A stretch of DNA of 6,245 nt from a bacterium (lineage in GTDB: Bacteria; CSSED10-310; JAJRTK01): NCBI GenBank assembly GCA_024278345.1, contig JAJRTK010000199.1, positions 1 through 6,245 on the forward strand. Reading direction: 5' to 3'. The position numbers were made by a program, and so were the translations under genes. The notes below the pieces were generated by a model. The model saw only the letters and a list, made by a program, of their open reading frames with translations. It ran no database searches and was not told where the DNA came from. Positions 39 through 6,245 of this stretch are shown here, piece by piece; the first letter of the stretch is position 1; every line of letters begins with the position of its first letter.

Positions 39-3000
39 ATGGGTCGCGACATGACGTCCGAAAGCGGCACCCCCCGAGAGGGCCGCCCGTGGACTCTCCT
101 GCTCGGACCCGGCGTACGCCTGGAGGCGGCCTTCCCGCTCTTCCAGGGACTCTTGACGGTCCCCACGACGGACGACCCCGCGACGGGGAACACCTACCTC
201 GAGCAGCTGGAGGACCTGGGCGCGCTAATTTGCGAGTTCCCGGAATCCGGCAGGCTGCTGCTGGATGCGGACTGTATTCCGCTGGAAGACGTGGGCCTCG
301 TGCGACGCTTCCAGGGCGGCCACCCGAGCTGGGAGCTGCACCTGGTCGGCAGCGACCCCGGCCGAGCCGCGGCCCGCGCGCTGCGTCAGCTGCCCGGCAG
401 CCGCTGGTGGCCGGCACCGCTGGAGGTCGAGAGCCTGTACAGCCTGGCGACCCTGGACGTGGGCGGCGCGCCGCCCCGCGAGGACCCCACCGCGGCAGCC
501 GAAGCGGCCGACGAGGGCCCCGACCCCAGATCCGAGGCCGGACCGCGGAGCGCGCAGCGCGGCGACTCCTCACTCCTGGCGCGGGTGGAGGCGCCGTCGC
601 GGGAAGAGGTGGCCGACGCGCTCTCCGGCACGTATTGCCGCTGCACGGGCTACGAGCAGGTCTTTGCGGCCGTGGAGCTGGCCCGGAGGCGGATGGCGGA
701 TCCGGAGTTCACCTGCGAGCTGGCGCCTGAATTCCGGAAGGAGCTGAGGCATATCGGCAGCGTGAGGCCGAAGGTGGATGGCCCGCGGCTGGCTCGTGGG
801 GAGAAGGCCTACGTGGAAGACATGGTCCAGCCTGGCAGTTGTCACATGGCCATGCTCCGGAGTCCCCACGCCCACGCCTACATCCGGCGCATCGACGCCG
901 AGGCGGCTCGGGCCATGCCCGGCGTTCTCCTGGTGTTGACCCACGAAAACTGCCCCGATGTCTACTACAACCAGGCGGGCCAGGGATTCCCCGAGCCATC
1001 GCCGTATGACCGGAGGATGTTCGGGCAAAAGGTGCGTCACGTGGGGGACCGCGTGGCGGCGGTGGTGGCCGAGACGCCGGAGATCGCCCGGGCGGCGCTG
1101 GAAAAGATCGCGGTGGAATACGAGGTGCTGCCGCCGGTCCTCACCGTCGATGAAGCGGCGGCGCCGGGCGCGCCGATCCTGCACGACAGCGTGGTGGAAT
1201 ACGTGGTGGGCGCCCCGGAAGACCTGGACAACAGCGGCGCCGATCCCCGGGACGGCAAGGTCATCTACCAGTTCCCCATCCACGGGGATCCTCGTCGGAA
1301 CATCGCCGCGGCGGTGAGCGGGGGCATCGGGGATTTGGAGGCCGGCTTCCGGGAAGCCGACCTGGTCATGGAGCGTGAATACCAGACCGGCCGCATCCAA
1401 TGCACTCCGCTGGAGCCCCACGTCTCCTATGCGCGCCTGGAAGGAGGGCGCCTGGTCATCCACGCGTCCACGCAGGTGCCGTGGCACCTCAGGCGCATCG
1501 TGGCCCGGGTGCTGGGGATCGGCGAAAACAAGATCCGAGTCATCAAGGAGCGCGTGGGCGGCGGATTCGGAGCGAAGCAGGACATCGTCATGGACGAGGT
1601 CGTGGCGTATGCCGCCTGGACCACGGGCCGGCCGGTCTTTTTCCGGTTCACCCGGGAAGAGGAATTCATCGCGTCGCGCACCCGGCACCCCCACAAGATC
1701 CGGGTCAAACTGGGAGCGAAGCGGGACGGCAAACTGACGGCCATGTACATGAACGTCAAGGCCAATACCGGGCCGTACGGCGCCCACTGCCTCACCGTCC
1801 CCATGAACTCGTGCGGCAAGACCCTGCCTCTTTTCCTTTGCGACAACGTGAAGTTCGATGTCACCTCCTACTACACCAACATCTCGCCCACCGGGGCGTA
1901 CCAGGGTTACGGGGCGCCCCAGGGCTCCTTCGCGGTGCAGATGTGCGTGGCCGAGCTGGCCGACGCGCTGGGGATCGATCACCTGGAGATGCTGGAAAAG
2001 AACCGCGTGGACGATGGGACCATGCTGGAGATCCTCCGCTGCCTGGGCGAAGGGCGGGAGGGCAAGGCGGAGCGGATTTCGAGCTGTGGCCTGGGGCCGG
2101 CGCTGGAAAAGGGATCCAAGCTCATGAGCTGGGGCGTCAAGGAGCCGGCGCCGGAACCGGAGATCCGCATCGGCCAGGGCGTCGCCACGGTGCAGCAGGG
2201 GTCGGGCCTGCCGGGCCTCGATTCGGCGAACGCCTCCATCACGCTCCTGAGCGACGGATCGTTCATGCTCCTGAGCGGCGGCGCCGACATCGGGACCGGT
2301 CTCGATACGGTGACCACGAAAATGGCGGCGGAAGTCCTCTGCGTGCCCATGGAACGGGTTTCGGTCATCTCGGCCGACACCGACGTGACGCCGTTCGACG
2401 TGGGCGCCTACGCCTCCAGCGGAACCTTCTTCTCCGGCAGCGCCGCACTCAACGCAGCCCGGGACCTGGAACGGCAGATCCGGGAGGTGGCGGCCCAGCT
2501 CATGGGCGAATCCGCGGAGAACCTGGCCCTGGTCTATCCCGGCCTGATCCGCGGCAAGAAGGGGGAAATCCCCCTGGAAGAGGTGGCGAGGCACGCGGAA
2601 AAGGGCGACGGCTGCGGGCAGCTCATGGGCTTCGGTCGCTTCACGACCGACAAGGCCGCGTTTCCCTACGGCGCCCATTTCTGCCAGGTAGCCGTGGATA
2701 CCCGGACCGGAGAGGTGCAGATCCAGAAATACTACGCGCTCCAGGATTGTGGAACCCCCATCAACCCGGAACTCGCACTGGGCCAGATCTACGGGGGCGC
2801 CCTCAAGACCATCGGCCACTCGCTGTACGAAGACCTGGTCCTGGACGAAAAGGGTGTCCCCCTGAACCCGACCCTCCGGGACTACGCCGTCCCCATGATC
2901 GGCGACCTCCCGGCGGACTTCCGCGCCGAGCTCATCGACGTCCACGACCCTCACGGCCCGTTCGGAAGCAAGTCCATCGCGGAAATCTCCTGCAATGGAG

Positions 3001-3143
3001 CCGCGCCGGCCATCGCCGCCGCCATCCACGATGCCGTGGGCGTCTGGATCCGGAGCTGGCCGTTCACGCCGGAGAAGATCCTCCGGGCCCTGGGGAAGCT
3101 TCCCGACGACAACCCGAAATGGGAAACAACGGAAGCCACATAA
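39..3143 (+). CDS. Xanthine dehydrogenase/aldehyde oxidoreductase family molybdopterin-binding subunit with atypical N-terminus (possibly 5'-partial)
   Basis: This protein of 1034 residues from ATG 39 belongs to the molybdenum hydroxylases, which hydroxylate N-heterocycles or oxidise aldehydes at a Mo-molybdopterin centre. Residues 240-370 look like the a/b hammerhead domain; about 430-990 form the two cofactor-binding domains. Visible motifs are VGGGFGAKQD (506-515), GAYQGYGAPQG (619-629), DIGTGLDTVTTK (750-761) and GSKSIAEIS (976-984), whose E982 matches the catalytic base glutamate. CRCTGY (200-205) is the tail of the second [2Fe-2S] domain, but the rest of the iron-sulfur module is absent. 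Residues 15-137 instead resemble a diverged receiver domain, followed by an Ala/Asp/Glu/Pro/Arg-rich linker (about 143-178). Substrate cannot be told. No FAD subunit is nearby. The start is doubtful: no clear ribosome site precedes 39 or the ATG at 51, and the frame stays open to base 3, so the true start may lie upstream. Family call sure; N-terminal interpretation inferred. Confidence 0.9.
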   Translation: MGRDMTSESGTPREGRPWTLLLGPGVRLEAAFPLFQGLLTVPTTDDPATGNTYLEQLEDLGALICEFPESGRLLLDADCIPLEDVGLVRRFQGGHPSWELHLVGSDPGRAAARALRQLPGSRWWPAPLEVESLYSLATLDVGGAPPREDPTAAAEAADEGPDPRSEAGPRSAQRGDSSLLARVEAPSREEVADALSGTYCRCTGYEQVFAAVELARRRMADPEFTCELAPEFRKELRHIGSVRPKVDGPRLARGEKAYVEDMVQPGSCHMAMLRSPHAHAYIRRIDAEAARAMPGVLLVLTHENCPDVYYNQAGQGFPEPSPYDRRMFGQKVRHVGDRVAAVVAETPEIARAALEKIAVEYEVLPPVLTVDEAAAPGAPILHDSVVEYVVGAPEDLDNSGADPRDGKVIYQFPIHGDPRRNIAAAVSGGIGDLEAGFREADLVMEREYQTGRIQCTPLEPHVSYARLEGGRLVIHASTQVPWHLRRIVARVLGIGENKIRVIKERVGGGFGAKQDIVMDEVVAYAAWTTGRPVFFRFTREEEFIASRTRHPHKIRVKLGAKRDGKLTAMYMNVKANTGPYGAHCLTVPMNSCGKTLPLFLCDNVKFDVTSYYTNISPTGAYQGYGAPQGSFAVQMCVAELADALGIDHLEMLEKNRVDDGTMLEILRCLGEGREGKAERISSCGLGPALEKGSKLMSWGVKEPAPEPEIRIGQGVATVQQGSGLPGLDSANASITLLSDGSFMLLSGGADIGTGLDTVTTKMAAEVLCVPMERVSVISADTDVTPFDVGAYASSGTFFSGSAALNAARDLERQIREVAAQLMGESAENLALVYPGLIRGKKGEIPLEEVARHAEKGDGCGQLMGFGRFTTDKAAFPYGAHFCQVAVDTRTGEVQIQKYYALQDCGTPINPELALGQIYGGALKTIGHSLYEDLVLDEKGVPLNPTLRDYAVPMIGDLPADFRAELIDVHDPHGPFGSKSIAEISCNGAAPAIAAAIHDAVGVWIRSWPFTPEKILRALGKLPDDNPKWETTEAT

Positions 3144-3227: not shown

Positions 3228-3268
3228 CCCCCGGCGGCGGGTCACGCCGCGCGTTACTCGAAGGTCGT

Positions 3269-3311
3269 CCGGGGATTCCATCCCCGGTCCCCTGGCAGGG
3301 CTTTGCCCCGC
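3269..3311. repeat. Two adjacent small hairpins at 26-bp spacing
   Basis: The first hairpin has arms CCGGGGAT (3269-3276) and ATCCCCGG (3280-3287) with loop TCC. The second has arms 3295-3301 and 3305-3311 with loop TTT and one A-C mismatch. Their left arms start exactly 26 bases apart. Stem length, three-base loop and period match the hairpin run at 3405-3501, so I take both as parts of one repeat family. They lie downstream of a gene and contain no plausible ORF. Confidence 0.55.
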
Positions 3312-3336
3312 ACTCACCAGGGAGCGTGCTCAACTT

Positions 3337-3360
3337 CCCGTTGCAACAAAGGGCAACGGG
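3337..3360. repeat. Hairpin with CCCGTTGC/GCAACGGG arms
   Basis: Perfect 8-bp arms (3337-3344 and 3353-3360) enclose an 8-base loop. The right arm is part of an 11-bp sequence (3351-3361) that recurs at 3558-3568, on the far side of the large inverted repeat. The left arm can therefore pair either locally or with 3560-3567. Confidence 0.6.
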
Positions 3361-3568
3361 ACTCGGTCATGGTACCGGCCACGGTTCAGATTTCAGACGC
3401 CGCCCCGGGGCTTCCAGCCCTGGAACCCGGCGGAGGCTCCGCCTCCGGACCTCCGATGGGAGCGCCGCTCCCAGACCCACGCCAGGGAGCCAGCTCCCTG
3501 GGCCCCTCTTTGTGCGCTGCGTGCTTTTTTCGGGTGGCCGGTACCATGACCGAGGCCGGGCAACGGGA
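3351..3568. mobile_element. MITE-like foldback element: 21-bp inverted repeats flanked by an 11-bp direct repeat
   Basis: The sequence at 3362-3382 is the exact reverse complement of 3534-3554 (21 of 21 bases; each arm contains GGTACC). The 11-mer GGGCAACGGGA lies directly before the left arm (3351-3361) and again at 3558-3568, three bases after the right arm. Terminal inverted repeats inside short direct repeats, with about 196 bp between the direct repeats and no transposase, are what is expected of a non-autonomous miniature transposable element. The interior (3383-3533) holds four tandem hairpins and a T6 run (3525-3530). The caveats are the three extra bases on the right side and the fact that part of the direct repeat also forms a local hairpin. 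A structured RNA is the main alternative. Confidence 0.5.
3405..3501. repeat. Array of four hairpins with about 26-bp period
   Basis: Four palindromes follow each other. First, 3405-3412 with 3416-3423: loop TCC, one G-T pair. Second, CGGAGGC 3431-3437 with 3441-3447: loop TCC. Third, TGGGAGC 3457-3463 with 3467-3473: loop GCC. Fourth, CCAGGGAG 3482-3489 with CTCCCTGG 3494-3501. Left arms begin at 3405, 3431, 3457 and 3482. The spacers are 7-9 bases and share an ACC(C/T) core (AACCCGG, GACCTCCGA, GACCCACG). Stem sequences differ between units while pairing is kept, so this is conserved structure rather than a simple tandem repeat. It is not a CRISPR array, because units are too short and not identical. 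Confidence 0.65.
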
Positions 3569-3832
3569 TCCCAGCCCACATTGATGTACGGCGGTGGGCC
3601 TCGCTTATGCTCGGCATCTCGCTGCGCTCGGCACTCCGTCTTTTTTCTTTGGTCACATGTCCCGTATTGCGTGAATGCCCGGCACAGCGCCAGGACCTGG
3701 AGTCCCCTCCGCCGACCACCGATGACCGGTGCTATTTTTTTAGGAATGGTCCCAGGTATCGTATTTTTGGGGTCCTTTCTCGCCCACGCTCCCCTGAAAA
3801 CCAGAAAAACTGAAAAAACATCCAAAGAATAC
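3568..3832. other. Gene-free stretch between the foldback element and the hsp20 promoter
   Basis: I see no supportable gene here. The contents are a 6-bp stem (GCCCAC 3574-3579 with GTGGGC 3594-3599), an imperfect tandem repeat at 3600-3634, several T or A runs (around 3641, 3735, 3763 and 3814), and a gradual drop in GC toward the promoter at 3833. Confidence 0.5.
3600..3634. repeat. Imperfect 17-18 bp tandem duplication
   Basis: CTCGCTTATGCTCGGCAT (3600-3617) is followed directly by CTCGCTGCGCTCGGCAC (3618-3634). The copies differ by a one-base gap and a few substitutions. A pyrimidine-rich run follows. It has no coding context and its function is unknown. Confidence 0.5.
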
Positions 3833-4007: not shown

Positions 4008-4029
4008 ATCCACAATGAAGGAGAAGGAT

Positions 4030-4467
4030 ATGTTGACCCGATGGAATCCCTATCGAGAATTTGCACTGCTCCAGGAAGACGCCAATCGCCTTTTCGACAT
4101 TTTCACCCGACGAGGCAGCGGTACCACGCCCATGACCGGCTGGAATCCCGCAGTCGATATCTTGGAAGACGAAGACGCCTACACCATCACGGCGGAGCTT
4201 CCAGGACTGGACAAGGATGATGTGGAAATCCACCTAGAAAACCGCACCTTGACCATCCAAGGTGAAAGGGCGCGGGAAAAAGAAGTGAAAGAGGAATCCT
4301 ACCACCTGACGGAGCGCTTCTTCGGCAGGTTCTCCCGCTCCTTCACGCTCCCCTCCAGCATCAATCAGTCGAAGATCGCGGCAAACTTCAAGGAAGGTGT
4401 CCTCCAGATCACGCTTCCCAAGATGGAAGAAGTGAAGCCGAAGCTCATCGAGGTGAAGTGCGGCTGA
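4030..4467 (+). CDS. Small heat-shock protein, Hsp20/alpha-crystallin family
   Basis: This is an ATP-independent holdase chaperone of the cytoplasm that keeps unfolding proteins soluble for later refolding by DnaK/ClpB. The 145-residue product has the usual length. Its N-terminus MLTRWNPYREF (1-11) is typical of bacterial class A proteins. The alpha-crystallin domain runs from about 38 to 132, with AELPGLDKDDVEI (55-67), ERFFGRFSRSFTLP (95-108) and the signature AANFKEGVLQITLP (117-130). A C-terminal I-E-V (140-142) matches the IXI motif that docks on neighbouring subunits. I chose ATG 4030 because AAGGAG (4018-4023) lies six bases upstream and the N-terminus fits the family. ATG 4015 would add MKEKD; the ATG at 3931 lacks a ribosome site and adds an unlikely Ser/Arg-rich leader. 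It stands alone behind its own promoter, convergent with the HPF-type gene. Confidence 0.95.
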   Translation: MLTRWNPYREFALLQEDANRLFDIFTRRGSGTTPMTGWNPAVDILEDEDAYTITAELPGLDKDDVEIHLENRTLTIQGERAREKEVKEESYHLTERFFGRFSRSFTLPSSINQSKIAANFKEGVLQITLPKMEEVKPKLIEVKCG

Positions 4468-4664: not shown

Positions 4665-5213
4665 TCAGGCGACTGGATGGAGACTCGTGGCCTGGGGTCC
4701 TCGGTCTCCCGGCCCTTCCGAGAAGCGGGCCATTGTGCCGATTTCGAGTTTATCGAAACTTCCCGTGGCAACGCTGTTCTTGTGGAAAAAGATCTCGCGA
4801 CCATCGGGCGTCTCAAGGAAACCGTAGCCCTCATGATAGAAGAGCTGGCTTACCCGCCCCATGACGGGATCGTCGTGGCCCTTCACCTTTCGTCGGCGCT
4901 CCTCGGAATGATCCATGAGCTGGCGTTTTGCTGCCTTGAAGGCGTTTTTGACGGCAATGTAGGGATCCTCGTTCGCCTGGTTCTCCGTAGGTTCACGGTT
5001 CACGACGATCTCACGGCCGGGAACACGGAGGATAATCTTGACGTGAAACAGTTTGCCGCTTCGTTGGTGACGATGCGGAAGCTCCAGAACCACCCGACAA
5101 CCCAATATCCGGTCATAGTATCGTTTGAGAGCCTCGACCTTTTGCCGAATCCTCTCCTCGACGAACTCTGAAGGCTGCATTCCGAGGAACACGACTTCAA
5201 CGGGTGTCTGCAT
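4665..5213 (-). CDS. HPF/RaiA-type ribosome hibernation factor fused to a C-terminal cold-shock domain
   Basis: This 182-residue protein has two parts. Residues 1 to about 108 form an S30AE/HPF (sigma-54 modulation) domain, including VEVVFLGMQPSEFVEERI (5-22) and the strand-helix end YIAVKNAFKAAKRQL (85-99). Such domains bind the 30S decoding centre and stop translation or protect idle ribosomes. Residues about 117-180 form a cold-shock domain: GRVSQLF (119-125), an RNP1-like EGYGFLE (128-134) and an RNP2-like IFFHKNSV (141-148), which bind single-stranded RNA. A charged hinge (HSEERRRKVKGHDD, 102-115) joins them. The start at 5213 is set by a strong ribosome site (5220-5226); the frame continues upstream and ATG 5255 would add 14 unconvincing residues. 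It is too short for the long HPF dimerisation tail, which the cold-shock domain replaces. No clear promoter was found. Confidence 0.9.
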   Translation of the reverse strand: MQTPVEVVFLGMQPSEFVEERIRQKVEALKRYYDRILGCRVVLELPHRHQRSGKLFHVKIILRVPGREIVVNREPTENQANEDPYIAVKNAFKAAKRQLMDHSEERRRKVKGHDDPVMGRVSQLFYHEGYGFLETPDGREIFFHKNSVATGSFDKLEIGTMARFSEGPGDRGPQATSLHPVA

Positions 5214-5219
5214 AGTCTT

Positions 5220-5226
5220 CTCCTCT
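5220..5226 (-). promoter_or_regulatory. Ribosome binding site AGAGGAG fixing the start of the HPF-cold-shock gene
   Basis: Read on the minus strand, AGAGGAG lies six bases before ATG 5213-5211. It settles the choice against the in-frame upstream starts at 5255 and 5474. Confidence 0.8.
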
Positions 5227-5837: not shown

Positions 5838-5925
5838 ACTCGGTCATCGGCTCGGTCACCGAATCCGGCCACGGCCCCAGGGCCACCGACCCTGAAACCC
5901 ATCGGTGGCGGCCTTCGGACCTCCG
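5838..5925. repeat. Degraded relative of the 3361-3501 element
   Basis: ACTCGGTCAT (5838-5847) and CCGGCCACGG (5875-5884) are the two halves of the left arm found at 3361-3384, here separated by 27 bases instead of 4. They are followed by a perfect 8-bp hairpin (GCCACCGA 5882-5889 with TCGGTGGC 5902-5909) and by CGGACCTCCG (5916-5925). That 10-mer also occurs at 3446-3455, spanning hairpin 2's end and the following spacer. The order of parts is preserved. Confidence 0.45.
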
Positions 5926-5969
5926 CCAGAAGCGCTGGTTTATGATCTTACCGTGAAAGTACACGCCTA

Positions 5970-6042
5970 CATGGAGGCCGGAAGGCCTCCATGCAAAAAA
6001 ATCGGGGAATGAGTTTGTGCGCAGGCCTTCCGGCCTGCGCAC
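5970..6042. repeat. Pair of strong hairpins with a shared apical core in opposite orientation
   Basis: Hairpin A: arms CATGGAGGCC (5970-5979) and 5984-5993, loop GGAA. Hairpin B: arms GTGCGCAGGCC (6017-6027) and 6032-6042, loop TTCC. Both stems are perfect. Read on the minus strand, B has the same 14-base apex AGGCCGGAAGGCCT as A, while the lower stems differ but still pair. An A7 run follows hairpin A. Arrangement and size recall the paired inverted units of REP-type extragenic palindromes. Confidence 0.6.
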
Positions 6043-6166
6043 GCTCTTGGCGGCGGAGACGTATTGGGGCATCCACGTAAAGCGGGACACTCCATGGATT
6101 GTGGCACTGCCGAGACCTATCAGATTCGGTTGACAACTTCACCGCTGGGGCGGGCCTCCTTCCCGG

Positions 6167-6209
6167 CTCCGTGCAGCCCGGAGGGCGCTACACCGGCAAG
6201 ATGCCGGTG
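6167..6209. repeat. Two adjacent hairpins about 25 bp apart near the right edge
   Basis: A weaker stem (CTCCG 6167-6171 with CGGAG 6179-6183) is followed by a perfect 8-bp stem CACCGGCA (6191-6198) and TGCCGGTG (6202-6209) with loop AGA. Spacer length (7) and centre-to-centre distance (about 25) match the array at 3405-3501. No gene is evident from 6043 to the window end. Confidence 0.5.
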
Positions 6210-6245
6210 CCACCGTTTCGGCGAAGAAAATTGTGAAGCAAAAAC

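Follow-up and report, generated by a model that had tools for sequence, protein, structure and literature searches.

QMITE2 and Chunjie are the described elements whose anatomy comes closest to that of the repeat reported here. QMITE2 of Coxiella burnetii is ~190 bp long, with 23-29 bp terminal repeats, a very stable hairpin structure, variable direct repeats of 7-9 bp (up to 11) and ~50-78 copies, full and truncated (PMC10969869, PMC5896051). Chunjie of Geobacter uraniireducens spans 178-235 bp and has conserved ends, direct repeats and many partial copies in one genome, and the Correia elements of Neisseria (~204 bp) exceed 120 copies (PMC10969869). The repeat that we analyzed is of this well-known kind, the MITE, and is a new family of it, because the collections searched gave no sequence match; the comparison with QMITE2 and Chunjie is by their published descriptions. 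QMITE2 has a GTAG REP targeted by IS1111, whereas our element differs in its ends, carries a G+C-rich array of four hairpins and reaches ~115 copies. Chunjie, as described, has 38 copies with conserved ends. Correia elements are similar in length and copy number but insert at TA, and the present element differs by its 8-9 bp duplications and GG ends.

The window, that is, the whole 6,245-nucleotide stretch analyzed, corresponds to contig C123 in the genome bin (MAG) of an uncultured bacterium; the bin comprises 6.06 Mb in 550 contigs and is 87.9% complete. Its MITE copy is flanked by a molybdopterin-binding and aldehyde/xanthine dehydrogenase-domain gene (39-3143) and an Hsp20 gene (4027-4467), as assigned by Pfam; the window had no match in Rfam. 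A sequence-only reading had described a perfect 21-bp inverted repeat (3362-3382 and 3534-3554) bracketed by the 11-bp direct repeat GGGCAACGGGA (3351-3361 and 3558-3568), with a span of ~196 bp lacking a transposase gene. The 21-mers are indeed exact reverse complements, the 11-mer is present at both places, and the short span is too short to hold a transposase gene. However, comparison of copies shifted each boundary. Alignment of 30 copies with unrelated flanks, together with arm pairs bearing target duplications, set the family ends at GGCC...GGCC and the consensus at 201 bp, and the window copy is 199 bp (3359-3557, plus strand). Its terminal inverted repeats are 24 nt, not 21, with one mismatch at position 3: the left one (3359-3382, plus strand) is GGACTCGGTCATGGTACCGGCCAC, and the right one (3534-3557) reads GGCCTCGGTCATGGTACCGGCCAC on the minus strand. 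The family ends at GG, with the tip GGCCTCGG in the consensus versus GGACTCGG in the window copy, whose third base is A where the family has C. By chance, therefore, the true 8-bp target duplication GGGCAACG (plus strand, 3351-3358 and 3558-3565, delimited by flank comparison) reads as the 11-mer; the additional GGA belongs, on the left side, to the mutated tip of the element and, on the right side, to ordinary target DNA.

A search for further copies, which the sequence-only reading had proposed as a check, showed that the window copy is one of many. A DNA search of the same genome returned at least 40 interior matches at 93-99% identity, the window among them. The 24-mer arm GGCCTCGGTCATGGTACCGGCCAC matched 233 times with at most three mismatches (115 forward and 118 reverse), compared with 0 for the reversed-pattern control, which bears out the earlier view that the arrangement lies beyond chance; we therefore estimated ~115 copies, or roughly 0.4% of the bin. 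Flanks of the 30 aligned copies are unrelated except at a few sites held twice. The copies differ by a mean of 3.5% pairwise, vary little in their arms and range from 174 to 201 bp; lengths of 199, 200, 201 and 174 bp disrupt any common reading frame. Apart from a demonstrated autonomous partner, all MITE features tested were thus found: a length under 500 bp, terminal inverted repeats, duplications of constant length and variable sequence, many copies and no transposase gene. The element adds a large MITE family to a sparsely sampled bacterial lineage. Searches of 144 other genomes, 7 of them from the same phylum, and of plasmids and phages detected no copy. A Lamprocystis GTDB contig (L096), among the matches listed, had neither a second end nor a transposase and looks like chance; two viral-contig matches of a relaxed end pattern had one common surrounding sequence without the MITE interior and were likewise taken as chance.

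Flanks of other copies bear direct repeats that differ in sequence between sites and are 8 bp, sometimes 9 bp, long. Neither result that the sequence-only reading had named as refuting it, an absence of further copies or copies with no direct repeats at their flanks, was therefore obtained. Ten complete assembled copies have a perfect 8-bp flank match (one site, C282/C413, being counted twice), for example GAACCTCC, CAGGTTTG, GCTGAAAG and GAAGGATC, and L020 and L023 have perfect 9-bp duplications. When 142 arm flanks were paired, 19 complementary 8-mer pairs were obtained, whereas shuffling gave a mean of 0.6 such pairs and at most 3.5. Of the 19, 9 link arms on different contigs, and two of these 9 involve C282 and C413. 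The 142 arms are a non-random set, half of them retrieved with a pattern in which the first base of the flank had to be G or C, and we therefore drew no conclusion on target preference. Several assembled copies have no matching flanks. The C278 copy shows no duplication as assembled, and its matching 8-mer sits on C424, which indicates that mis-joining or recombination between copies explains at least some of the copies that lack duplications. The copies at C282:15652-15852 and C413:37-237 share identical flanks and duplication and differ slightly in element sequence, which suggests strain variants within the bin. Of 30 sampled arms, 22 are no more than 200 bp from the end of a contig, so the repeat contributes notably to the fragmentation of this genome; contigs could be rejoined by means of complementary target duplications.

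An empty site with a single target copy, which the sequence-only reading had also proposed to seek, was found as a paralog in the same genome. When the window flanks are joined via one GGGCAACG, they match an uninterrupted stretch of C373 (L102) at 91% identity over 165 bp (...CCCGTTGCAACAAATGGCAACGGGATCGCAGCCCAC...). The flanks belong to an older dispersed hairpin repeat (3263-3358 plus 3566-3634, plus strand) with weaker matches at L084, L038 and L109, and the target of the window copy is a palindrome inside it. At L073, another copy of the older repeat carries an insertion that arose independently at almost the same position in the palindrome. Gene interruptions were observed as well. The C5 copy, which has 9-bp duplications, interrupts an ISL3 transposase gene whose product matches profile positions 53-161 before the element and 161-235 after it, and the L021 copy interrupts a reading frame that, without the element, is continuous for 357 aa.

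The same genome also holds older relatives of 71-235 bp with the common end GG-N4-GGTCATCGT. A pattern largely excluding the young family gave 37 further ends, many from older, diverged elements. Those with duplications include 132-bp (L077, L097), 194-bp (L123), 232-235-bp (L063, L137) and 71-bp (L116) elements; their duplications are 8-9 bp, L063 matching at 7 of 8 positions. Among 15 termini, for which the search pattern biased one end per pair and left the opposite end free of bias, positions 1-2 (GG), 7-8 (GG) and 10-11 (CA) are invariant, positions 9, 12, 14 and 15 are nearly so and positions 3-6 vary. Several older relatives also share hairpin modules. Because the relatives have ends, duplications and some hairpin modules in common with it, the young 201-bp form represents a recent burst of an old superfamily, and the genome keeps a record of several element generations. 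Within the window, GCCGACCACCGATGACCGGTGC followed by a T tract (3706-3735) resembles the right end of an older relative with a terminator-like tail.

The interior of the window copy is an array of four hairpins, all on the plus strand: hairpin 1 (CCGGGGCT-tcc-AGCCCTGG, 3405-3423), hairpin 2 (CGGAGGC-tcc-GCCTCCG, 3431-3447), hairpin 3 (TGGGAGC-gcc-GCTCCCA, 3457-3473) and hairpin 4 (CCAGGGAGC-ca-GCTCCCTGG, 3482-3501). All four were identified by folding; hairpin 3 is kept in copies, and hairpin 4 is also seen in the alignment. The span folds 4.9 (DNA) and 4.6 (RNA) standard deviations below dinucleotide shuffles. Nine superfamily sequences gave one double-changed base pair in each of two stems: a T-A pair of hairpin 1 is C-G on both sides in three of the nine, and a G-C pair of hairpin 2 is A-T on both sides in one relative. 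Because only nine sequences were compared and shuffles often reach this count of double changes (85 of 500), we made no strong claim of structural selection. A scan of the consensus placed a terminator-like hairpin with a T6 tract near the right end (3512-3530, plus strand), a weak signal, as two such structures were found in the region compared with 0.8 expected in shuffles. The 174-bp copy L051 (C58:214-387) lacks hairpin 4, as if by deletion between ACCCAC direct repeats.

Overall, the data support the sequence-only reading of a non-autonomous mobile element whose direct repeat is a target duplication. The repeat is almost certainly a MITE copy with a target duplication of ~8 bp, part of a young burst in an older superfamily and apparently inserted by an outside DDE-type transposase. 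We infer a DDE transposase acting in trans because an enzyme of this type leaves ends, a duplication of fixed length and a copy number like those observed. Such an enzyme, encoded elsewhere, would recognize the 24-bp ends, excise or copy the element and join it to a staggered cut of 8 bp (sometimes 9 bp), repair of which would duplicate the target bases. The 201-bp form would thus have risen to its present number within the GG-N4-GGTCATCGT superfamily, and the palindromic modules, common to older relatives, would be carried along, and deletion between short direct repeats could remove them.

The matching transposase that the sequence-only reading had placed elsewhere was sought, and none with the family ends was found among IS256, DDE_Tnp_1, ISL3, IS1595 and IS1 or with three end patterns, in a bin that is 87.9% complete and broken at the repeat. 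IS256 was not found in this genome. Genes or fragments of DDE_Tnp_1 (by eye, an ISAs1-like fragment), ISL3, IS1595 and IS1 are present, and their ends differ where readable. A literature search for the core GGTCATCGT together with a transposase returned nothing. Variant ends with other interiors, followed as transposase leads, proved to belong to older MITEs, group II introns or ordinary genes, and no transposase was recognized among them. The driver may have died out or may be encoded outside the bin.

A more specific form of this explanation, in which an IS1- or IS6/IS26-family transposase drives the MITE, is possible, and we put it forward tentatively. Duplications made by IS1 are 8-9 bp, the length observed here, and the genome has two IS1-domain genes. 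The older relatives mostly end in GGCCTTG, with positions 3-6 variable and positions 1-2 and 7-8 fixed. GGnnnTG ends are reported for most IS6/IS26 elements and IS1, and an 8-bp duplication is recorded for IS6 (PMC6807381). Both families are comparable to the MITE in GG tips, duplication length and, in part, tip signature. However, the signature holds only in part: GG is invariant, but T at position 6, and with it TG at positions 6-7, occurs in only 8 of the 15 ends, and the young family has C there. By eye, the IS1 copy on C400 seems to end in GGTAGTGATGACACGG, not GGTCATCGT, and no GGTCATCGT end lies beside the two IS1-domain genes in this incomplete bin. The MITE also differs from these families in having no internal transposase gene, and no full-length element with its ends was found. 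Nevertheless, the GG tips, the 8-bp duplication and the GGnnnTG-like tip suggest relatives of IS6/IS26 or IS1 as the first place to look for the driver.

We think it rather unlikely that the GG-N4-GGTCATCGT superfamily (71-235 bp, with interiors built in part from interchangeable hairpin modules) owes its mobility to an undescribed transposase family and that the hairpins help the element. If this were true, the modules might serve, for example, as enzyme landing sites, in single-strand protection or in transcription ending. It is improbable that another IS of the bin drives the MITE via divergent ends. The IS1595, ISL3 and ISAs1-type families give duplications of ~8 bp, and genes or fragments of all three occur in the bin, but two IS1595 copies end in GGCTCTATATGCGATCC, unlike the MITE, ISL3 ends by eye in AAGAGCC and the ISAs1-type fragment has an unrelated end. 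Spread of a REP/BIME-type palindromic repeat by a RAYT (single-strand, HUH-type) is very improbable: the hairpin modules and high copy number look alike, but the terminal inverted repeats of the MITE are long and exact, its two ends are bordered by duplications of 8-9 bp that vary in sequence, and HUH-driven REP spread is not known to produce such a target duplication. That the repeat is a dispersed structural one, spread by recombination or segmental duplication with no transposition, has next to no probability, since modules that recur in many arrangements and assembled copies without duplications are outweighed by the sharp ends, unrelated flanks, target duplications and interrupted ISL3 gene.

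Other repeats accompany the MITE in this genome. At L067, L069 and L070 (C36, C96 and C206), a hairpin-forming MITE-type end (GGTCATAGTACCGGCCATGACC) is followed by a sequence starting with GTGAGAGAGGG. This start looks like the 5′ end of a group II intron, and both L070 and L066 have a group II intron domain according to Rfam; intron insertion beside such hairpins would fit class C behavior. At L008, L016 and L061, MITE copies appear inside the 5′ part of the GTGAGAGAGGG intron-like sequence, with GGGTGGCGTGGGAAGCTGGGAG preceding the element. In the window, positions 5840-6050 contain the REP-like palindromes GGAGGCCGGAAGGCCTCC and GTGCGCAGGCCTTCCGGCCTGCGCAC, with a decayed GGTCATCGG end nearby. 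Another dispersed repeat, TTTCGGCGAAGAAAATTGT(G/A)AAGCAAAAAC with hairpins, is present at window positions 6110-6245, at L060 (the far end of C80) and at L126; it sits at the contig ends of C123 and C80 and also occurs in C198. Additionally, window positions 4668-5222 (minus strand) encode a ribosome hibernation-type (S30AE) domain fused to a cold-shock domain, as identified by Pfam.
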